A stretch of 64,000 nucleotides of DNA from Pedobacter cryoconitis. Its GTDB lineage: Bacteria; Bacteroidota; Bacteroidia; Sphingobacteriales; Sphingobacteriaceae. Position 1 is the first letter of the stretch; each line of letters opens with the position of its first letter. Shown here piece after piece: positions 3,270 to 41,963 of this stretch. The translations under genes were made by a program, and so were the position numbers. The notes under the pieces are model-generated. The model did no database searches and was not told the DNA's origin. It saw only the letters and a program-made list of their open reading frames with translations. The stretch spans positions 487,300-551,299 of the forward strand of contig NZ_JACHCE010000002.1 of the NCBI RefSeq assembly GCF_014200605.1. The letters are read 5' to 3'.

Positions 3270-4223
3270 TTACTTAGTAGGGTTAATTGTCAGTGGCATG
3301 GATTGTTTGAAATCATTGAAACCTGTAAATCTGGCGGTGAAAGCCACTGTACCATAATTACCTGTTGCCAGTGTTTCGGGTACTTTGATTACAGCTTCGG
3401 TACGTGAATAGGAGACAATAGGGAACTCTACCTCTTGCCCTTTAATATTTACACTGAAAGAAGTGAAATTGACGAATACTGAATTTCCGGCTTTAATCGT
3501 AAAGGTATCTCCTTGTTTGAATGTGCCTGCAGTGATTACGACGATATAGGGTTGAAGATATTTCAGCCTAACCGGATATTTTGATTGTGTTGAAATGCCT
3601 GATTTCTTTACTTTAATATAGTAAAGTCCCGTGTCTATAGCTGGTGGAATAATCAGTCCGGATAAGCTGTAGATATCCTCTATTGGATTGATGCTGAAAT
3701 CAGAGCCTTTATCCATGTCAGTTTCCTTACTGGTGGTTTTACTGATCAGCGATACTTTAAGTTTATTCGGATCGGTGGTATAGAAATTCCCTATGATACT
3801 CATGCTTGTATTCAGGCCGTATTGAGCAGTTTGGGTTGCTGTAGAGCTTTCTTGTAAGACCAAAGGGTTAACCTGCTGTATTTTAATAACCAGTTTATAG
3901 GTCGTGCTGGTTTTATCTGCTCCGGTTACTGTATAGGTGGTTTTATCACTTAATACATCTACAGGCTCTACGGTTTCTTTTAAGGTAGCACCATCTGCTA
4001 ACTTAACTTTTGGATCTATCGCATTCAGCTCATAATAAAATGGGATATAAACTGTAATGGTATGATCTGTTTCATCAATAACACCTGCAATATTTCCGTC
4101 CGAAACGGGTACATTATATTCCAGTATTTTACTATTGGAAAGGGCAGGTGGGGCTATAGTTTTTTTACAGGCTGCAAAACCGGTAAGTGACAGCAATAAA
4201 TAGAGAATCGGGATACGTTTCAT
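3270..4223 (-). CDS. Lipoprotein with Ig-like/DUF5018-type repeats (paralogue)
   Basis: 317 residues with a lipoprotein signal ending GFAACKKT (Cys19). Residues about 30-115 contain ITVYIPFYYELNAIDPKV and TTYTVTGADKTSTTYKLVI, the same DUF5018-like motif order as the protein at 1392-2354; the rest is beta-rich with IPT/TIG-like character (TFTIKAGNSVFVN). The gene starts 14 bp after the stop of the HmuY gene at 4238-4981, which puts it firmly in the same operon. I infer a surface-exposed accessory to heme capture; no binding residues can be named. Confidence 0.7.
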   Translation of the reverse strand: MKRIPILYLLLSLTGFAACKKTIAPPALSNSKILEYNVPVSDGNIAGVIDETDHTITVYIPFYYELNAIDPKVKLADGATLKETVEPVDVLSDKTTYTVTGADKTSTTYKLVIKIQQVNPLVLQESSTATQTAQYGLNTSMSIIGNFYTTDPNKLKVSLISKTTSKETDMDKGSDFSINPIEDIYSLSGLIIPPAIDTGLYYIKVKKSGISTQSKYPVRLKYLQPYIVVITAGTFKQGDTFTIKAGNSVFVNFTSFSVNIKGQEVEFPIVSYSRTEAVIKVPETLATGNYGTVAFTARFTGFNDFKQSMPLTINPTK

Positions 4224-4237
4224 TATAAAATATGAGC

Positions 4238-4981
4238 TTATTTAATTTCAAATTTTGTACTTCCTTTAGGTACCAGGACATATTCAAATGTGAAGAACAT
4301 GTGTGGTGTGCTTCTTAACCATTTATCGGCTGTAAAAGCATCTTTATAACAAGAGATCATTTTGATCTTTGCATAGTTTCCATTTCCTGTGCGTACAATG
4401 ACGGTCCTTTTCTCTGGTAACGCATAGGCTACGTGTTGTTTTTCATAACTGCCATCACCTCTTCTTGTTCCGGCAAAATCATATTGATACCAGCCCATGC
4501 CTTCTCCGAAATCACCTGAGTCATCAGTGCCGATTAAGCTTTTTCCTGTTCTGAACTGCGCATCAGCCGGTACTTCTGTCACCTGATCAAATGGCTTGTC
4601 CAGGATAAGGATGCCACCTGATCCTGCACCACCGTTACCGTAGTTATTGGCATCTTTTCCATTGTTTCCGCTCATAAAGCTGTTATATAATCCGCTGAAA
4701 GCGATATCCCAGCGGGTAGTTTGAGCAAGATTGGCAGCTGTTACCTGTTTATTTTCCAAACTAAAATATAGCGTAGGTTGTGGTGCAGTAGGATTTGCAT
4801 CATCTGTGGGCGCGGCAAAATTTTCTACACGTTGTAATTTGTAAAAGGGAACTGAGCCGGCTACCGGTGGGTCAACTGGTTTACCTGGTTCAGGGTCATT
4901 GTTTTTAGAGCAGGAGGTTAAAAACAGGAATAATAAGGGTAATATATAGAGGGGCTTAAATGGCTTTAGGAAAGTTCTCAT
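4238..4981 (-). CDS. hmuY: HmuY family heme-binding lipoprotein
   Basis: 247 residues. Signal with lipobox FLTSCSKN (Cys at about 24) followed by a Pro-rich linker. The HmuY fold is recognised from LYFSLENKQV, TTRWDIAFSGLYNSFMSGNNG, GWYQYDFAG, then RTVIVRTGNGNYAKIKMISCYKD and FFTFEYVLVPKGSTKFE at the C-terminus. In Porphyromonas HmuY the heme is held between two histidines; here the equivalent residues are not obvious by eye, although other Bacteroidota homologues use Met. The gene lies 11 bp downstream of a second hmuY and ends 14 bp before a lipoprotein gene. Role: capture heme at the cell surface for the TonB receptor encoded upstream. Confidence 0.85.
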   Translation of the reverse strand: MRTFLKPFKPLYILPLLFLFLTSCSKNNDPEPGKPVDPPVAGSVPFYKLQRVENFAAPTDDANPTAPQPTLYFSLENKQVTAANLAQTTRWDIAFSGLYNSFMSGNNGKDANNYGNGGAGSGGILILDKPFDQVTEVPADAQFRTGKSLIGTDDSGDFGEGMGWYQYDFAGTRRGDGSYEKQHVAYALPEKRTVIVRTGNGNYAKIKMISCYKDAFTADKWLRSTPHMFFTFEYVLVPKGSTKFEIK

Positions 4982-4992
4982 ATTCTTTTGGT

Positions 4993-5643
4993 CTAGTCTT
5001 TAGTGGATAGGTTTCTGCTGCCGTCTTGTTGTACGAAATAGCGGAAGGTAAAGTAGGGTGCAGGCCAGTTCAGATCGCTCACTGTAGCTGGTGCACCTTT
5101 ATACATACTGATGAGTTGTAATTTGGCATATTTTCCATCCGCGGTTCGTAAAATATAGGTTCTGTTTTTGACCGGAACAGCGATGTGGGTTTTAAGTTCA
5201 TAGAAATACCAGCCATTGCCTGCTCCTGAATCCCATCCTGCAGAATTAATTGCATTGTTGGTGAATTCTGTGTCAGAAGGAGCTTCTTTAATTTGATCAT
5301 AGGCCTGATTAACGACAAACATTGCGCCTTTTGCTGCTGTACCTGGATTATTTACAGGGCTGTTTGGTGATATATAAGAATTATATTCTTTAGTAAAGGA
5401 TATGTCCCAATCAGTACCTGATTTCTTGCTGACATCTATTTTTGCACCGGTTTTAAAGCTGAAATAGAAGGGCGCAAATTCTTTTCCGCTGCCTACTGTA
5501 TTGCCTACATCGCCCGGCAGGTCATTAATTACTGTGCTTTTGCCATCCTCCAGCTGTGGTTTAATTTCGTCTTTAGTACAGGCTGTGAATAAGACCAGCA
5601 TTGCAGGTAAGAACAAGGTTTGTTTAAGTAGTTTTATATTCAT
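4993..5643 (-). CDS. hmuY: HmuY family heme-binding lipoprotein
   Basis: 216 residues with lipobox LFTACTKD (Cys at about 22). HmuY features: FYFSFKTGAKIDVSKKSGTD, WDISFTKEYNSYIS, NGWYFYELKTHIAVPVKNRT, then TYILRTADGKYAKLQLISMYKG and PYFTFRYFVQQDGSR. It is the first gene after the TonB receptor (11-bp gap) and shares its motif order with the gene at 4238-4981, so the two are tandem paralogues. The classic hmuR-hmuY pair is therefore present, with receptor first rather than HmuY first. Expected location is the outer leaflet of the outer membrane. Confidence 0.85.
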   Translation of the reverse strand: MNIKLLKQTLFLPAMLVLFTACTKDEIKPQLEDGKSTVINDLPGDVGNTVGSGKEFAPFYFSFKTGAKIDVSKKSGTDWDISFTKEYNSYISPNSPVNNPGTAAKGAMFVVNQAYDQIKEAPSDTEFTNNAINSAGWDSGAGNGWYFYELKTHIAVPVKNRTYILRTADGKYAKLQLISMYKGAPATVSDLNWPAPYFTFRYFVQQDGSRNLSTKD

Positions 5644-5654
5644 CTTGTGATTTT

Positions 5655-8030
5655 TTAGAGTTGATCTTTAAAGAATTTCCAGGTAATACCGCCTACGATT
5701 GTTCTTCCCTGCTGTGCAGGCATTAACTGATCCCGGTAATTGAGTAAGTTGTCGGCAGTAAGCTGAAGGGATAAATGTTTGCGGTAAAATGTTTTTTGAA
5801 CGGATGCATTGAAAAGGAAGAAGCTGCGGACAAAAGTGTCATAATTGTCTATGAAATTGTTGGCGCGGTTGGCTTCCATAAAGCCGTATTTGCTGCGGTA
5901 GTTTACTCTGAAGGAACCTGTAAGGCCTGATTTTTCATGTTCATAAGTAAATTTGATATTAGCCATATGACGGGAGCGGTTGGCCATCCCGAAGTAATCG
6001 GCTCTGGTGGATCTTCGCATTTCGTTTTTGTCGGTATCATAGACCTGGCCGTAAAGTCCCTGACCTGTTTTGATAGAGTCTATTACACCGCGGTCTATCG
6101 CATAAAGCAGCTGATAACCGGCATTGATATTTAATGAACGTGTCGCAGCCCAGTTTAAGCTGATTTCTGTACCAGTTAGATAGGCTCTGGCGATATTGAC
6201 ATAAGAAAATATCTGCTGACCACTTGTTTTTGTAGCCACTTGTTCTGAATTGATGAAGTTCTTAATATCATTATAGAATACATTTACATCTAGTTTGACT
6301 GATTTAATAGCTGTAAATGTAAATCCTGTACTATAAGATACAGAGCGTTCTGGTTTTAACTGACCTACACGACTGGCAATTGGCCAGATACTACTGATCT
6401 GTCCTGCGTCTTTAAGGACTTGTATCTCTCTAGAAAATTCTTCAGCACCTAATACGGTATAGCCTGTTTGAAGATTGGTGAAGACCAGGTATAGCTGCTG
6501 GAAATTCGGTGTCTTGAATCCTGTTCCAATAGCTGCTTTAAAGGTTAAATCTTTGATTGGAGTATAACGGAAACCAATACTTGGATTGATCTTGCTGCCA
6601 TATTTATTATGATAGTCGTAACGGGCACCACCGGTAATACCAATTTTATCACTTGTTTTCCAGTCTGCCTGCCAATAAGCAAAATAATTGCTCATGTCTT
6701 TTGATCCCCTGTAAGAAACATCGTTTAAATGTTCATAAGCTCCGCCGATACCGCCTGTCAGATTTAAGGTTTTTGTTAATTCGTGCGTAGCCTGTACTTC
6801 TGCTCTGTGGAGATATTGTGTAAATCTGTTTCCTGGGATAAGAGCGCCGCTGTTAAGATCTGTAATATCCTGTTCGGTCTGATAACGGGTAAGGTAATAT
6901 TGTGTTTTTAACCTTAATCCATTTCTGAAGTTATTATTTAAGGATAGCGATCCGTTCAGATCACGTTCATCCATTACATCTGTACTTGGCCTTACTCCAT
7001 AATTCAGCTCATTTACAGAGTGACGTGTGGTATAACGGCCATTGAAATTCAGTGTGGAAATTTCATTCAGCATATATCTGCCTCTGCCCTGCAACGAATA
7101 GCTGTCAAATGGTGGGGCAGTTTTACCTTCTTTTAAATAAGGATTGGCATTGAAACCATCGGTGCGGTAATAGTTGGCAGAAATATACGCTGATCCTTTT
7201 TTACCAGCAAAAGGAGTTTCGCCTTCAAGAGTTGCATCAACGAGATTATAACTTCCATAACGTAAGGCCGCAAGTCCTTGTGGCTGGGTGATATTTTTAC
7301 GTGTAACAATGTTCACGACCCCTGCCAATGCTTCGCTACCATATAAACAGGATGATGCACCTTTAATGATCTCTATCTTTTCAATGTTGGATACGGTAAT
7401 TCTGGAAAGGTCAAAATTTCCTGAATTACGTCCTACCATAGGCTGCCCATCAATCATAATCATGGTATAACCGCTGTCAAAACCCTGCATTTGTAAACCA
7501 ACGGCTCTGTTTCCTGAGCCAATATCACTAACAATGGCCAGTCCGGTTTGTTCTTTTAATACTTCATCCAGTCTGCGGCTACCCATTTGTTCAATAGTTT
7601 TACGGGTGATGACTGTACTGGGCATAATGGAATGTACCATGTCTATCAGGTTGTCTGGATTATGATGTCCGGTGCTTATATTTACCTGATCTAATCCGTT
7701 CTCTGCGGTTTGCAGTTTGATATGAAGAGGTTTAGTATGGCCGGGGGCGATGTCCGTTTCTGCCGTATATGGGCTGAACCCTACTGCGGTTATTTTAATT
7801 GTATAGGTTCCTGTATAAAGACGGGTAAGTTCAAACCCTCCGTTTTTGTCACTTATTGCAACTCTGTGATCTGGTTCAAGCAGGACTGAAGCACCAGATA
7901 ATGCATTATTCTTTTCATCTGTTACACGTCCTTTCAGTATGCCTTTTGTCTGGGCTTTTACTGTAATTGTGAACAGAGTTAGTAATAGCATCATGCTGTA
8001 TATTTTTAGTGTTCCAGTCTTGTAGTACAT
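5655..8030 (-). CDS. TonB-dependent heme/hemoprotein receptor with N-terminal carboxypeptidase-like domain
   Basis: 791 residues. Signal peptide 1-26, then a CarboxypepD_reg-like domain (about 28-110: GILKGRVTDEKNNALSGASV), a plug domain (about 125-235: RRLDEVLKEQTGLAI, then MIDGQPMVGR and IEIIKGASSCLYGSEALAGVVNI) and a beta barrel to the C-terminus with the end pattern AGITWKF-like VGGITWKFFKDQL. The barrel has PNFQQLYLVFTN near 500, the place of the FRAP/heme region of HmuR-type receptors. Context with three HmuY-type genes and a divergent HmuTUV set supports heme as substrate. It is transcribed leftward from the 322-bp divergent region holding AraC-type operator repeats, about 65 bp from its ATG. 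Confidence 0.9.
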   Translation of the reverse strand: MYYKTGTLKIYSMMLLLTLFTITVKAQTKGILKGRVTDEKNNALSGASVLLEPDHRVAISDKNGGFELTRLYTGTYTIKITAVGFSPYTAETDIAPGHTKPLHIKLQTAENGLDQVNISTGHHNPDNLIDMVHSIMPSTVITRKTIEQMGSRRLDEVLKEQTGLAIVSDIGSGNRAVGLQMQGFDSGYTMIMIDGQPMVGRNSGNFDLSRITVSNIEKIEIIKGASSCLYGSEALAGVVNIVTRKNITQPQGLAALRYGSYNLVDATLEGETPFAGKKGSAYISANYYRTDGFNANPYLKEGKTAPPFDSYSLQGRGRYMLNEISTLNFNGRYTTRHSVNELNYGVRPSTDVMDERDLNGSLSLNNNFRNGLRLKTQYYLTRYQTEQDITDLNSGALIPGNRFTQYLHRAEVQATHELTKTLNLTGGIGGAYEHLNDVSYRGSKDMSNYFAYWQADWKTSDKIGITGGARYDYHNKYGSKINPSIGFRYTPIKDLTFKAAIGTGFKTPNFQQLYLVFTNLQTGYTVLGAEEFSREIQVLKDAGQISSIWPIASRVGQLKPERSVSYSTGFTFTAIKSVKLDVNVFYNDIKNFINSEQVATKTSGQQIFSYVNIARAYLTGTEISLNWAATRSLNINAGYQLLYAIDRGVIDSIKTGQGLYGQVYDTDKNEMRRSTRADYFGMANRSRHMANIKFTYEHEKSGLTGSFRVNYRSKYGFMEANRANNFIDNYDTFVRSFFLFNASVQKTFYRKHLSLQLTADNLLNYRDQLMPAQQGRTIVGGITWKFFKDQL

Positions 8031-8094
8031 TGTTATTTTTAATCGATCTAAATAAGATGATGAAGCAAAACTGGCTAATTAATTTCATATATGA

Positions 8095-8154
8095 TTTGTT
8101 CAATGCGTATTAAGATTTATTCAAAACGTATTATCTTTTGTTCTATCCGTATTA
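8095..8154 (+). repeat. Three 18-bp direct repeats with 21-bp period, putative AraC-family operator
   Basis: Copies at 8095-8112, 8116-8133 and 8137-8154 fit TTTRTTCWANNCGTATTA; 14 of 18 positions are identical in all three, and the start-to-start distance is exactly 21 bp both times, i.e. two turns of DNA. Such direct repeats on one helix face are typical binding sites of AraC-type activators. The regulator encoded at 12101-13078 is the obvious candidate, but that link is inferred. Confidence 0.75.
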
Positions 8155-8269
8155 TTATTTTCTTTAATTGATCTTTTTTGCATCTGATTTTATACTGATA
8201 GTTTCATTAAACAGGTAATAAACAACATGTTTTTAATTTTAATATTATTTCAGATGGGTTTCCAGGTCA

Positions 8270-8287
8270 GAATACGGATAGAATAAA
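8270..8287 (-). repeat. Inverted copy of the operator motif upstream of hmuT
   Basis: Read on the minus strand this is TTTATTCTATCCGTATTC, matching the consensus of the three direct repeats at 17 of 18 positions and sharing 13 consecutive bases with the third copy. It lies 65 bp before the hmuT ATG, mirroring the distance of the first direct repeat from the receptor ATG. Confidence 0.7.
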
Positions 8288-8352
8288 TGGAAATGAACAA
8301 CTTGTATTTAGATTGATTAAACACGTTGTTTGTATAAAGATTTTAAAATAAA

Positions 8353-36325: not shown

Positions 36326-38218
36326 ATGACCGTAAAGAAAAGATATTTATTCCTTGTTTTTCTTGCCCTTTTTAGTGCTTGCCGGCAAAACAGGCAGGTT
36401 AGGGTTATCCCTGTGGCAGACTTCTTTAAGTCACAGGATAAAGGAGCTTATGCAATTTCTCTGGATGGTAAAACGATGTCTTATCTAAAATTGCAGGGTA
36501 AAAAGCAAAACCTTTTTGTTGAAGACCTGTCCACAGGAAAATCGGCTCAGATTACACGTTTAAATGAAAAAAATATCAATTATTACTTTTGGGTAAGTAA
36601 TGATGAAATAGTCTATTACAAAGAGAAAGCAGGGGCAGAGCGTTTATCAGATATTTTTATTATCAATAAAAATGGAGAAAACGAGCGTCAGCTAAATGAT
36701 AATAGCAAAAGTCGTATGCACGTGCTTAAAGACCAGCTGATTGATGGTAAATTTTTGCTTGTATCATCTAATAAAAGAGATTCAACTGTATTTGATGTCT
36801 ACCGGTTAAATGTAAGAAATGGTCATATGGATATGGCGGCTAAAAATCCAGGGAATATTACGAACTGGGTTACAGATTCCAAAGGTCAGATTCGTTTAGC
36901 AACTACCAGTGATGGTGTAAATCAGACCCTGCTTTACAGAGAAAATGAAAATCAGGCTTTCAGATCTATAGTAACCAATAATTTCAAGACCACATTTACG
37001 CCGATCGCTATCTCAGATAACAGGCCAAATATTCTTTATGCAATTTCTAATGTAAACAGGGATAAGAATGCGCTCATAGAATTGAACTGTATCAATGGAA
37101 AGGAAAGCAAAGTACTTTTTAGCAATGATACGCTGAATGTAGTAGATGCCCAGTATTCTGAATCTAAAAAAACAATGGCCTTTGTGATTTGTGAAACCTG
37201 GAAGAAAGAAAAGCATTATCTGGACTCCTCTGCCAGGAGGTTATATGCAAAACTGGATAAGCTGTTGCCGGGTACTGAATCAAAAATCATTGACAGGGAT
37301 AAGGCGGAGAATACTTTTATTGTAAGAACTTTTACAGATAGAAACCCCGGATCTTATTACTTGTATATAGCAGATAAAGGAACCATCAGGAAACTCAGTG
37401 ATTTTAATCCTTACGTTAAAGAAGCTGAAATGTGTGAAATGAAGCCAGTTTCCTATAAAGCCCGTGACGGACTGAAAATTCAGGGATATCTTACCTTGCC
37501 TATTAATAAATTACCGGAGAACCTGCCTGTTGTCGTGCTGCCGCATGATGGTCCGGGACGTAGAAATTCATGGGGCTATAATGCCGAAGTGCAGTTTCTG
37601 GCCAACAGGGGATATGCAGTTTTTCAGGTTAATTATCGTGGGTCATCAGGTTACGGAAAATCTTTCGCTGCTGCAGGATCAGGTCAATGGGGGGAGAAAA
37701 TCAAGGATGATATTAATGATGGTGTAAGGTGGCTTATTGAGAATAAGATTGCAAACCCAAGAAAAATAGCTATTTATGGTACGGGGTTTGGGGGGTATAT
37801 CGCGTTAAACAGTTTGTATTCAAGTCCGGGAATGTATGTTTGTGGCGGGTCTAACTCAGGAATAATTAACTTATTCAGCTATTTGAAAGCTATTCCCCCA
37901 TTCTGGAAAACCAATTTGCAGATGTACTATGAAATACTGGGTAATCCGCTGACAGAAGGTGACCGGATGCGTCAGATTTCCCCTGTCTTTCATGCTGATA
38001 AGTTCAGGGTACCAGTATTTATAGCACAGAGCCCTAAAGATCCCAGAAGTAATTCGGGAGAAGCTATTCAGTTTGTAAAAGAACTTAAGAAACGGAACGT
38101 AAATGTAACTTACCTGGAGAAAGAATATAGTGAGTTCTCCCCGCAGGGTGAAGATGTTCGTCAGGCATTATATGCTTCATTAGAACAATTTTTATCTGCT
38201 AATTTGTCTAAGAAATAA
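36326..38218 (+). CDS. S9-family (prolyl oligopeptidase-like) lipoprotein, catalytically degenerate
   Basis: 630 residues from the ATG at 36326. Lipobox ALFSACRQ gives a lipidated Cys near residue 19. Residues about 40-360 form a beta-propeller (repeats such as KTMSYLKLQGKKQNLFVEDL); residues about 380-630 an alpha/beta hydrolase with GLKIQGYLTLP, PVVVLPHDGPG, YAVFQVNYRGSSGYGKSF and WGEKIKDDINDGVRWL. The nucleophile elbow reads YGTGFGGY where active enzymes have GxSxGG: the Ser position is Gly487 (codon GGG). Asp572 is kept (SPKDPRSN), but the His box (EGHGF) reads YSEFSP. The protein is likely a non-hydrolytic binder. Followed after 5 bp by a histidine kinase gene. Confidence 0.85.
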   Translation: MTVKKRYLFLVFLALFSACRQNRQVRVIPVADFFKSQDKGAYAISLDGKTMSYLKLQGKKQNLFVEDLSTGKSAQITRLNEKNINYYFWVSNDEIVYYKEKAGAERLSDIFIINKNGENERQLNDNSKSRMHVLKDQLIDGKFLLVSSNKRDSTVFDVYRLNVRNGHMDMAAKNPGNITNWVTDSKGQIRLATTSDGVNQTLLYRENENQAFRSIVTNNFKTTFTPIAISDNRPNILYAISNVNRDKNALIELNCINGKESKVLFSNDTLNVVDAQYSESKKTMAFVICETWKKEKHYLDSSARRLYAKLDKLLPGTESKIIDRDKAENTFIVRTFTDRNPGSYYLYIADKGTIRKLSDFNPYVKEAEMCEMKPVSYKARDGLKIQGYLTLPINKLPENLPVVVLPHDGPGRRNSWGYNAEVQFLANRGYAVFQVNYRGSSGYGKSFAAAGSGQWGEKIKDDINDGVRWLIENKIANPRKIAIYGTGFGGYIALNSLYSSPGMYVCGGSNSGIINLFSYLKAIPPFWKTNLQMYYEILGNPLTEGDRMRQISPVFHADKFRVPVFIAQSPKDPRSNSGEAIQFVKELKKRNVNVTYLEKEYSEFSPQGEDVRQALYASLEQFLSANLSKK

Positions 38219-38223
38219 GTTAT

Positions 38224-39891
38224 ATGAGTTCAGAAAAACAAAGCGGTTACCGTAAAAACTTTTCATTGATCGTGACCTTTATTCTGTTGATCTCTGTCTT
38301 GTTTATCCTGTCTCTATTCCTGGCTTATAACTTCAGTAAAAAATTTATAGAGAATGAATTTGTATCAGAAAAGGTAAAAGTATTAGAAGAAACGATCAAA
38401 CCATACAATGAGTTCTTTCAGAATAAGGTCCCCGAAATTTCTTACTATAATGGATATCTTGATTCGGCCAGTGCATCAAAGTTTGTAGATACAGTAATCA
38501 ATACTTATCCATTTGTTTCCAAAGTGGTTTTCTATGATTCCGAGATTGGGAATACCCAGGTTGGAGACGGTTTGAATACTGGTCATTTCGCTTTTGGTCC
38601 AAAATCTATTTATCAGTTCGGCGACCTGGTCCCTTTAGATTCCGTCAAACTGTTTTCGAGGGATGATACGAAAAAATTTAGCAGGGGTGATGATTTTAAT
38701 GCTTTGGGTATAAAGCTGATCTCTTATATTGAAAGCCTGGATACGACAAAAGTGCCTAGCCAGGAAGAACTTTTTACCAATTTCAGCATTATCCGTTCTA
38801 ATAAAATCACCTATTTAAATATTCCCAGACTGGAAGATCTGAAAGTGTATAAGCAAATGCTCAGACAAAAACTGAGTCCGTCGCCAGTTTATCAGCAGGA
38901 TATGTTATCTTTTCATCTGGACCCCTATAAGCTCAGGATTATCAATACGCGTCCTTTATTATATCAAAATATAAGAATAGAGCCGCTCACTTACGATCCT
39001 TTAAATACTTCTACAGAATATGTAGCCACAGAGATTACTTTGCCAGGGCCGTTTTCAGATTATAAGCTTTATTTTATTTCTGCAAAATCATTTGTCGCTC
39101 AGGAGATCCTGAGTTATTTTATGCCTATTGCAATGGTCATGTTATTGTTCTATGGTATTTTAGTGCTTGTTACAGTCTTGATTTATAGAAATCTGAATAT
39201 CAATCATAAGATGTTTAAGCTACAGTACGATTTTATGAATAATCTGACTCACGAGTTTAAAACTCCTGTGAGTGTCATTAAAATAGCGGGAAATAATATT
39301 AAAAGTGCAAGTTCGTTAACTGAACGTGAGCTTAAATTATATGGGAAAATTCTTGATGAAGAAGCCGATAAATTAAATGGGCTGATGAACAAACTCCTGG
39401 CTTTTACACAAATTGAAAACGGGGCCATACAGCTTAACCACGATACAATAAATATTGTGGATTTTATTGAAAGTACGATTGAATCGCATACGCTGAAACA
39501 TCCTGATTTTGCCGTAACCTATGAAGTTACCGGGTTTTCAGCATTTGTTACTGATCCGGTATTACTGGGCAGCCTTTTTGATAATCTGGCAGAGAATGCC
39601 TATAAATATTCTCCGCCAGAACGGAAACGTTTACATATTGTAGCAAGAATGATCAAAGGAAAAGTGGTATTCAGATTTATAGATCAGGGAATTGGTATTC
39701 CTACACCGGAAATTAATAATATCTTTAAGAAGTTTTACCGCATACAGAACCAGTATAATCAAAATGGAAGTGTAGGCCTGGGCTTAGCCTTCTGTAAAGA
39801 GCTGGTGAATTTTATGAAAGGTGAGATTACAGTAAAAAGTAAAGTAAATAAAGGGACAGAGTTTAAAATAGTGTTGCCTTATAATAATTAA
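38224..39891 (+). CDS. Membrane sensor histidine kinase
   Basis: 555 residues. Two membrane helices (about 14-36 and 300-322) enclose a periplasmic sensor domain of about 265 residues without recognisable family. No HAMP domain is evident. The dimerisation/phosphoacceptor domain has NNLTHEFKTPVSVI with His343; ATPase boxes are LFDNLAENAYKYSPP (N), FIDQGIGIP (G1) and GSVGLGLAFCKELV (G2). It is 4 bp upstream of the response regulator and 5 bp downstream of the S9-like lipoprotein, which could be part of the sensing unit (inference). Confidence 0.92.
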   Translation: MSSEKQSGYRKNFSLIVTFILLISVLFILSLFLAYNFSKKFIENEFVSEKVKVLEETIKPYNEFFQNKVPEISYYNGYLDSASASKFVDTVINTYPFVSKVVFYDSEIGNTQVGDGLNTGHFAFGPKSIYQFGDLVPLDSVKLFSRDDTKKFSRGDDFNALGIKLISYIESLDTTKVPSQEELFTNFSIIRSNKITYLNIPRLEDLKVYKQMLRQKLSPSPVYQQDMLSFHLDPYKLRIINTRPLLYQNIRIEPLTYDPLNTSTEYVATEITLPGPFSDYKLYFISAKSFVAQEILSYFMPIAMVMLLFYGILVLVTVLIYRNLNINHKMFKLQYDFMNNLTHEFKTPVSVIKIAGNNIKSASSLTERELKLYGKILDEEADKLNGLMNKLLAFTQIENGAIQLNHDTINIVDFIESTIESHTLKHPDFAVTYEVTGFSAFVTDPVLLGSLFDNLAENAYKYSPPERKRLHIVARMIKGKVVFRFIDQGIGIPTPEINNIFKKFYRIQNQYNQNGSVGLGLAFCKELVNFMKGEITVKSKVNKGTEFKIVLPYNN

Positions 39892-39895
39892 TGAT

Positions 39896-40585
39896 ATGTC
39901 TAAAGGAATTAAAATACTGATCGTTGAGGATGATGAAAATTTAAGGTTTTTAGTAGTACACAGGCTGAAATCAGAAGGCTATGATGTCATGGAAACTGGT
40001 GATGGAGAGCTGGCGGTGAAAGCTATCATGGAAGAAAAACCTGATATTGTCTTATTAGACTGGATGCTGCCAGGTAAGCAGGGATCAGAGGTTTGTCAGG
40101 AGGTCCGTCAGCAGGGATTTGAAAACCTGGTTATTATGATGACAGCCAAAGCTCAGGATGTAGATAAGATCGATGCTTATACTTTTGGTGTCTCTGACTA
40201 TGTAACCAAGCCTTTTAATATGGATGTACTGGTTGCTATGCTGGAAAGTAAGGTGAAGTTTCTGCTAAACAATGATAAATCAGAAATTCACCGTTTTGGC
40301 GATATGGAACATCATCCAAATATCCATACGCTTTACAGAAGCGGGAGGAAAATTGAGCTGACTATATTAGAGAATAGGATTTTACTGTATTTCCTTAGAA
40401 ACCCGAATAAAGTGATTAACCGTGATGAGCTGATGCTGGTTGTCTGGGGATATAATTCTGATGTAAATACCCGTACACTTGATATGCATATTGTACGTTT
40501 GAGAAAGAAAATTGAATTGAACCCTGATAATCCGCAGTTACTGCAAACAGTAAGGGGAGTAGGTTATCGTTTTAATGCCGGATAA
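39896..40585 (+). CDS. OmpR-family response regulator
   Basis: 229 residues. Receiver domain 6-118 with acidic pocket Glu11/Asp12/Asp13, phosphoacceptor Asp55 (LLDWMLPG), Thr83 and Lys105 (VTKPF). The C-terminal winged helix (about 130-228) ends LDMHIVRLRKKIE and TVRGVGYRF, the OmpR/PhoB pattern. It forms a two-component system with the kinase 4 bp upstream, similar in arrangement to RprXY of Bacteroides. Target genes unknown. Confidence 0.93.
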   Translation: MSKGIKILIVEDDENLRFLVVHRLKSEGYDVMETGDGELAVKAIMEEKPDIVLLDWMLPGKQGSEVCQEVRQQGFENLVIMMTAKAQDVDKIDAYTFGVSDYVTKPFNMDVLVAMLESKVKFLLNNDKSEIHRFGDMEHHPNIHTLYRSGRKIELTILENRILLYFLRNPNKVINRDELMLVVWGYNSDVNTRTLDMHIVRLRKKIELNPDNPQLLQTVRGVGYRFNAG

Positions 40586-40673: not shown

Positions 40674-41963
40674 CTAAGCTCTTTTAAGCGTGAAAATTGT
40701 AATCTCTGGTAAGATTCCTACTCTTCCGGGATAACCCAGGAAACCGTAGCCTACGTTCACATATAGCTGTTGTTTTTGCTCCTGATATAATCCTGCCCAT
40801 TCTTTATAGATATATTCTATAGGACTCCATTGATAGTTTTCAGTACGTACACCAAATTGCATACCATGTGTATGACCGCTAAACATAGCATCTATCTGAG
40901 GGTACTTTGGCAGAACCTCTGCACGCCAGTGTGAAGGATCATGGGATAGTAAAAGCTTGACAGGAAGGTCATCCGTGTCTTTTGTGGCCAGATCCATGCG
41001 TCCATATTTAGGAAAGCGTCCCATGCCCCAGTTCTCAATACCAAGGATACCTATTTCTTCACCGTCTACCTTAAGTCTGCGGTGCTCATTCATGAGCAGG
41101 TCCCAGCCCATTAATTCGTGGGTTTTAATCACGTCTTTTAAGTTTTTGACTTTGGCAGGGGAAGATTCTTTTCCGAAGTGATAGTCACCGTAATCGTGAT
41201 TCCCAAGAGATGAATAAACACCAAGAGGTGCTTTTACCTTGTCGAAAATATTCTGGTAGTCTCTCATCTCAGTAGCCATATCATTGACAATATCACCAGT
41301 AAAAAAGATGAAATCAGGCTTTTCTCCAAGCAGCATTTCAACACCGCCTTTTACAGCAGTTTTATTATAGAAACTTCCGGAATGGATATCTGAGATCTGT
41401 CCCATTGTAATACCGTCAAAAGCAGCAGGTAAATTTGGGAGTATCAGTGTTTTTCTTCTTATCTGGTAGTCATAGGCACCGGTAGCAATTCCCCAGGTCA
41501 ATGAAGTCAGGGGAATTGCAGCTGCCACCAAACCCGCTTTAACGATAAATGCTGATCGGCTGATCGGTTCAGCAGCAGGAAAAATAGCTGTATCAGCAGC
41601 AGATACATTGGCATTGCTGTTACTTTCTGGATCAGCTGCAGGTTTTTTCAAACGCTTGTAAAGAGATATGCTTAGCCTGCGCAGGTCATCAATCACAAGA
41701 AAGGGCAGCATCACAATTTTGCAGGCTGTAGTCAGAAAGAAAGTCACCAGTATGATAGCACGGAGCGAAAGAAATAGATTCGAAAATATGCCCGCAAAGA
41801 CACCAATCACCAATACAATCGTAACCCCCCAGTAAATACGGGTAAATCTTGTCTTGGCTTTTTCACTCCAGTTTTTGAAGACAGACAAAATTGCCTTGAC
41901 AAAATAGAAATCGAATGCTATGATTAAAAGGCATCCTGCAATAAGAAAGGGTAATCTTCCCAT
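40674..41963 (-). CDS. Membrane-anchored metallophosphoesterase
   Basis: 429 residues. Three to four membrane helices in the first 85 residues, a hydrophilic loop (about 95-130), another helix (about 140-160) and then a calcineurin-like phosphoesterase domain: GQISDIHSG, FFTGDIVND, SLGNHDYGD, LLLSHDPSHW and FSGHTHGMQFG supply the full set of dimetal ligands. It resembles YaeI/YkuE-type enzymes that act on lipid-linked substrates at the periplasmic face. Substrate not determinable. Monocistronic, convergent to the two-component system. Confidence 0.88.
   Translation of the reverse strand: MGRLPFLIAGCLLIIAFDFYFVKAILSVFKNWSEKAKTRFTRIYWGVTIVLVIGVFAGIFSNLFLSLRAIILVTFFLTTACKIVMLPFLVIDDLRRLSISLYKRLKKPAADPESNSNANVSAADTAIFPAAEPISRSAFIVKAGLVAAAIPLTSLTWGIATGAYDYQIRRKTLILPNLPAAFDGITMGQISDIHSGSFYNKTAVKGGVEMLLGEKPDFIFFTGDIVNDMATEMRDYQNIFDKVKAPLGVYSSLGNHDYGDYHFGKESSPAKVKNLKDVIKTHELMGWDLLMNEHRRLKVDGEEIGILGIENWGMGRFPKYGRMDLATKDTDDLPVKLLLSHDPSHWRAEVLPKYPQIDAMFSGHTHGMQFGVRTENYQWSPIEYIYKEWAGLYQEQKQQLYVNVGYGFLGYPGRVGILPEITIFTLKRA

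Follow-up and report, generated by a model that had tools for sequence, protein, structure and literature searches.

An S9 peptidase homologue without catalytic Ser and His as a candidate periplasmic subunit of a family-specific two-component system

Introduction

Envelope accessory proteins that act on a sensor kinase are exemplified by YycH and YycI, which act on WalK and whose fold is not known to be related to that of the S9 peptidases. An S9 fold in which the catalytic Ser has been replaced is found in the eukaryotic, DPP4-like proteins DPP6 and DPP10, presumably members of S9B, which are bound to Kv4 channels. DPP10, with Gly at the position of the catalytic Ser, regulates Kv4, and its fly orthologue is an ancillary subunit as well as a peptidase (PMC4873792). 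Among bacterial lipoproteins, LpqB is an accessory protein reported to modulate MtrB (PMC5487470), and mtrAB-lpqB, where the lipoprotein gene comes last, is sometimes termed a three-component system (PMC10714768).

The locus described here lies in a window (the whole stretch of DNA analysed) of 64,000 nucleotides from Pedobacter cryoconitis, family Sphingobacteriaceae. Its S9-like protein has, like DPP6 and DPP10, an S9 fold with the Ser replaced, by Gly as in DPP10; however, the DPP proteins are eukaryotic partners of a channel, while the partnership of the window protein with a kinase is suggested by gene linkage. Nor is its nearest affinity to the DPP4-type (S9B) enzymes, since the acylaminoacyl peptidase 5l8s leads both by sequence and in Foldseek. 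Like MtrAB-LpqB, the window module encodes a lipoprotein together with a kinase and an OmpR-type regulator, although the lipoprotein gene is here the first rather than the last. MtrA is the solved structure closest by sequence to the window regulator (161.7 bits), and the MtrA model NF040689 scores 200.4 bits on it, under the cut-off of 300. Pfam includes an LpqB model, and the LpqB domain is not among the 11 Pfam matches of the S9-like protein up to E 10, a list from which filters drop very weak matches. The likeness to WalK-YycH/YycI lies in the notion of an envelope accessory protein on a kinase, and the window kinase has a WalK-YycH model (9a5d) among its Foldseek matches. By analogy, the module may work like DPP10-Kv4 and MtrAB-LpqB, and it appears to be a member of neither.

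Gene organisation and predicted structures

The S9-like gene occupies 36326..38218 of the forward strand, on which its domains and the two module genes that follow it also lie, and encodes 630 amino acids in a frame from the ATG at 36326 to a stop codon ending at 38218. The interval 37470-38218 originally assigned to it thus covers the hydrolase domain only. The product begins with a lipoprotein signal peptide (36326..36382; lipobox FSAC, Cys19 codon at 36380-36382), bearing out its proposed nature as a lipoprotein. There follow a β-propeller part of approximately residues 25-370 (36398..37435), recognised from its strand pattern and near full-length structural matches and hence with approximate boundaries, and an α/β-hydrolase domain of approximately residues 371-630 (37436..38215), assigned from the predicted fold and a Peptidase_S9 match at residues 416-628 (Pfam PF00326; 115.2 bits against a cut-off of 22.6).

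The AlphaFold2 model of the protein, built from 68 aligned sequences, has pLDDT 91.7 and pTM 0.90, and Foldseek places 5l8s first (E 7.4e-39, TM 0.79). Structural comparison with VIA gave Z 34.7 and an rmsd of 3.5 over 580 aligned residues for 5l8s, tied with 7c72 at Z 35.0. 5l8s also heads a sequence search of solved structures (E 7.4e-33), the first DPP4-type chain there having E 5.7e-12; DPP4 chains start at rank 9 in Foldseek and at rank 29 in VIA. The model therefore predicts an acylaminoacyl-peptidase fold of the type of 5l8s and 1ve6, which we take to be S9C. Propeller and α/β-hydrolase domain over near full length, and the catalytic Asp, are common to these enzymes and the window protein; unlike them, the latter lacks the catalytic Ser and His, is lipid-anchored and is encoded with a kinase and a regulator.

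The lipobox pattern was matched in 143 of the 149 distinct linked copies (a pattern that stops at its first match and puts the Cys in the wrong place in at least L161), and inspection by eye shows an N-terminal Cys in the remaining six. In this phylum, signals for surface export include at least two acidic residues following the Cys (PMC5080379). The window protein has RQNRQ directly after Cys19, with no acidic residue, while two acidic residues at +2 to +6 were seen in 4 of the 143 copies, and more in none; in L007 and L228 two adjacent acidic residues follow the Cys. A periplasmic location is the simplest reading of these signals.

A gap of 5 bp, as originally noted, separates the stop codon from the ATG (38224) of a sensor histidine kinase of 555 amino acids (38224..39891; HisKA at residues 336-400, HATPase_c at 444-553), and a further 4 bp precede an OmpR-type response regulator of 229 amino acids (39896..40585), whose nearest relative by sequence among solved structures is the MtrA entry 2gwr. 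Kinase residues 45-290 (38356..39093, boundaries approximate) are taken as the putative periplasmic sensor domain; no Pfam match above cut-off was obtained for the sensor region. The AlphaFold2 model of the kinase (pLDDT 78.6, pTM 0.50) matched known structures mainly through the kinase core; we assign no fold to the sensor, and its absence from the lists is not evidence of a new fold. Upstream of the module lies a divergent TPR gene. Downstream and facing it is a metallophosphoesterase gene (40674-41963, reverse strand) whose product matches LpxG weakly, at 85 bits under a cut-off of 350; a metallophosphoesterase homologue is also found near the module in genera g2, g7, g12, g20, g22 and g25, genera being numbered here with g1 as that of the window genome.

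Catalytic site

The nucleophile elbow (37778..37795) reads G485-T-G487-F-G-G, Gly487 (codon GGG, 37784-37786) standing in place of the Ser. Phe604 (codon TTC, 38135-38137) occupies the column in which 39 of 41 unlinked homologues have the catalytic His, while alignment shows the catalytic Asp to be retained as Asp572 (38039..38041). The original prediction, which had the Ser and His lost and the Asp and hydrolase fold kept, is confirmed on each of these points, the fold through the Pfam match and the model. Within g1, of which 69 genomes have a linked S9-kinase pair, the Ser is missing from 68 linked copies and the remaining copy has Ser but no His. A sequencing error in a single genome does not explain the loss, since none of the 69, the window genome included, has an intact triad.

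A replacement Ser or His was sought in the hydrolase domain of 68 g1 rows, and none is invariant beyond residues conserved in unlinked relatives: each invariant Ser, Thr, Cys or His also predominates at its position in the intact linked or the unlinked relatives, and the invariant residues gained, among the residue types scanned, are Tyr437 and Glu598 only. As judged by conservation alone, no substitute nucleophile or base stands out. Position 486, Thr in the window protein, varies among copies (T/N/S/A/V), while His407 of the HxGP motif is retained, as is Asp572. Sequence match and propeller/hydrolase fold place the protein in the S9 family, and of the Ser-Asp-His triad it retains only the Asp; it is an S9 homologue and should not be filed as a peptidase.

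Distribution of the three-gene array

Of 301 genomes of the family, 291 contain an S9-like homologue at E 1e-30 and 296 contain the kinase at E 1e-60. A set of 121 genomes drawn from the order, which all belong to this family, has the kinase in 120. The exception is G067, a g21 genome of 2.3 Mb listed as 100% complete, which lacks the kinase at E 1e-40 and whose best S9 match is distant (26%); all 18 g21 genomes counted, in contrast, have the linked pair. In a class sample of 295 genomes the kinase was found in 10 (E 1e-60), all of them family members, and in none from outside the family, whereas S9-like homologues occur in 69, the family contributing 10 of these. One kinase homologue (G117:C6:149879-151519) contains one in-frame TAA.

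The three-gene array is seen in most sampled family genomes, among them Pedobacter, Mucilaginibacter, Sphingobacterium, Arcticibacter and relatives, with Pelobium also among the named loci. Two linked loci bear other titles, L267 (a Bacteroidetes MAG) and L285 (Flavobacteriaceae, 62% identical to the window protein). Linkage, defined as S9-like gene and kinase adjacent on one strand within one fetched locus, was found in 158 genomes. The regulator was seen in 140 of these loci, several of which end before it. Gene order is common to 21 genera and gaps are mostly short, the exception being L097 of g3 with about 190 bp. One scan for viral homologues found none, and no description of the operon was found in the titles and abstract openings of the literature searched, which lies mostly outside the subscription journals.

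Linked and unlinked homologues

Of the 158 linked copies, 126 lack the Ser, which is replaced by Gly in 121, Arg in four and Asn in one; 29 keep Ser, Asp and His, and three have Ser without His. Intact triads are found in g6, g8, g13, g15, g22-g25, 14 of 18 copies of g21, two of seven of g18 and the single g17 sequence. It had been suggested that orthologues beside the same two-component system be checked for a shared loss: the loss is indeed common but is not general, given the 29 copies with a full triad. Unlinked rows, in which some species are present twice, have Ser in 89 of 90 and His in 88 of 90. The 80 named loci repeat the pattern, with Ser missing from 17 of 18 linked copies and kept in 61 of 62 unlinked ones; the remaining unlinked copy (L339) has a sequence cut before the elbow. 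The S9 relatives L002-L004 of the window genome keep Ser and His (a fourth, L005, was left out of this scoring), and G004, G064 and G083 each have a dead linked copy together with an unlinked homologue bearing both residues. The unlinked L289 (Parachitinimonas) keeps the Ser and has EGLGF in the place expected for the His.

The 29 linked copies with a full triad indicate that the linkage of S9-like gene and kinase is probably older than the losses, which recurred. A comparison of 115 dead linked, 30 intact linked and 24 unlinked rows revealed residues common to linked copies but rare in unlinked ones, namely Phe488, Lys445, Gly451, Ala493, Tyr519 and others. Phe488 is found in 91% of dead linked, 97% of intact linked and 0% of unlinked rows. 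Since these residues are common to dead and intact linked copies, recruitment was probably accompanied or soon followed by a change in the site beside the nucleophile, before most of the Ser losses.

Repeated loss and selection

A 112-row tree requires a minimum of 16 Ser and 9 His changes. Parsimony on a 254-row FastTree likewise gave 16 Ser changes, all of them within the clade of linked copies (which includes L135), and no loss among the remaining homologues outside it, even though the two parts of the tree have nearly the same branch length (35.0 and 35.3, respectively). If loss is treated as irreversible, the count is 13 (12 losses among linked copies plus L135) when the three copies with Ser but no His are taken as dead, or 30, L135 included, when they are taken as live. 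These three may instead be back-changes of a single codon position. A single step separates Gly from the AGY codons that encode Ser in linked copies. The chance of all 13 losses falling in one given half, were they equally likely in both, is about 1 in 8,000, a rough figure because the data were already in view when the tree was divided.

L135 (G426:C156), from outside the family, is counted separately: it is unlinked to a window-type kinase and lies beside another, and its long branch makes its placement unsure. The protein is dead, with Phe for Ser and Arg for His, and at its locus (4057-5970 (-) and 6053-8326 (+)) the S9-like gene and another kinase-regulator pair point away from each other. 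When that kinase was compared by profile with the window kinase family, the kinase core aligned and the sensor did not. L135 is possibly a second, independent pairing of an S9-like protein with a kinase.

Dead copies are under strong purifying selection. Pairwise dN/dS in g1 has a median of 0.033 and a maximum of 0.068 (65 pairs), to be set beside 0.062 in g14 (six pairs) and 0.050 in the mostly intact g21 (nine pairs). Among the 40 most closely related g1 pairs, constraint on the hydrolase part (0.020) is at least as strong as on the propeller (0.029).

Possible function

In the reading that we favour, to which we give a probability of about 0.58, the S9-like lipoprotein is a non-catalytic periplasmic accessory subunit of the neighbouring kinase, recruited as a peptidase. 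An active S9C exopeptidase would have been placed ahead of the family-specific kinase-regulator pair in the family ancestor, as linkage and tree suggest; its useful role would then have turned to binding, so that catalysis became dispensable and was lost many times while selection kept fold and protein. The lipid anchor would lie on the periplasmic side, as the signal implies, and the cavity between propeller and hydrolase domain would hold a ligand, perhaps, as a guess, a peptide or acyl-peptide. By touching the kinase sensor domain, the protein would set autophosphorylation and regulator output, both contact and direction of control being putative. The original suggestion of a protein that binds peptides and reports to the kinase fits this mechanism and is plausible, and it is partly supported here. 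For the fuller proposal of a three-component family module, in which a kinase gained an S9 peptidase as its ligand-binding periplasmic subunit and proteolysis was then lost independently about a dozen times with binding retained, we would put the odds as even. If this is true, one gene context contains a natural gradation from active enzymes to dead ones, and bacteria have a counterpart of the DPP10-Kv4 pairing. Intact and dead forms of one gene, in one neighbourhood and across 21 sampled genera, make a rare natural experiment that allows a direct test of when a peptidase turns into a protein of signalling alone, and a two-component system near universal in the family would gain a likely input subunit.

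A rather less probable alternative is that the non-catalytic protein makes no contact with the kinase and has an envelope role of its own, as scaffold, chaperone or peptide binder, sharing the operon because it is itself regulated by the system. It draws on genus g11, in which five genomes keep kinase, regulator and divergent TPR gene; at E 1e-30 no S9-like homologue was found in them, nor do the loci L346-L350 contain any remnant of one. The kinase can therefore work without the S9-like protein, which also weighs against the reading that we favour. Were the two in contact, a released constraint on the g11 sensor might be visible. An initial comparison had 12 of 43 otherwise conserved sensor positions changed in g11 against 4 of 57 in the catalytic part. 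On repetition with six further divergent genera, more g14 and g16 genomes, a conservation threshold lowered from 0.90 to 0.85, a narrower kinase-core region and g11 excluded from the reference, the figures were 12 of 49 (0.24) for the g11 sensor and 11 of 121 for the kinase core (p 0.012, uncorrected for multiple tests). Values close to that of g11 were returned by g8 (0.20), g17 and g24 (0.19) and g15 (0.18), and g3, g15, g19 and g24 also gave p < 0.05, uncorrected. Of the g11 changes, six lie close together at kinase residues 65-81 (p 0.016, the interval being picked post hoc), and g3 behaves likewise (p 0.014). The signal of released constraint is thus weak and suggestive only; moreover, sensor/core conservation in g11 is no lower than in some genera that have the S9-like gene (ratio 0.60 in g11, g16 and g24, and 0.58 in g5). 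Against a protein with no kinase contact stand the gene order maintained in 21 genera with, L097 apart, mostly short gaps, and the confinement of Ser losses to the kinase-linked clade except in L135, which itself adjoins another kinase.

Equally tentative is the idea that the ancestral protein exerted proteolytic control over a signal peptide of the system, which intact lineages still cleave and dead ones bind or sequester. Gene order and linkage are indeed common to intact and dead copies, and catalysis may still matter in some lineages, given the 29 intact triads; fly DPP10 sets a precedent as both ancillary subunit and peptidase, the mammalian protein being inactive (PMC4873792). However, the substrate would be hypothetical, and intact linked copies mostly have Phe488 where unlinked ones have Tyr, so that their activity is uncertain.

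That the protein is still a hydrolase, with another residue replacing Ser or His or with a non-peptide substrate, is improbable: Asp572, His407 and the fold persist, but g1 has gained no invariant Ser or His other than those conserved in unlinked relatives and position 486 is variable. Decay of the gene to a remnant is less credible still, the one frame shift, in genome G284, being outweighed by the low dN/dS of the dead genus g1 and by the lack of an internal stop in any S9-like match among the family-genome matches listed, and the selection data rule out a pseudogene origin. In that genome the frame of L222 shifts after residue 551 and the remainder lies in another frame, a change that is either real or a sequencing error.

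For an accessory subunit of the kinase, as we prefer, a possible contact site is the part of the sensor at kinase residues 62-82 (38407-38469), where conservation is strong and AlphaFold2 confidence drops to about 55 over residues 71-80.
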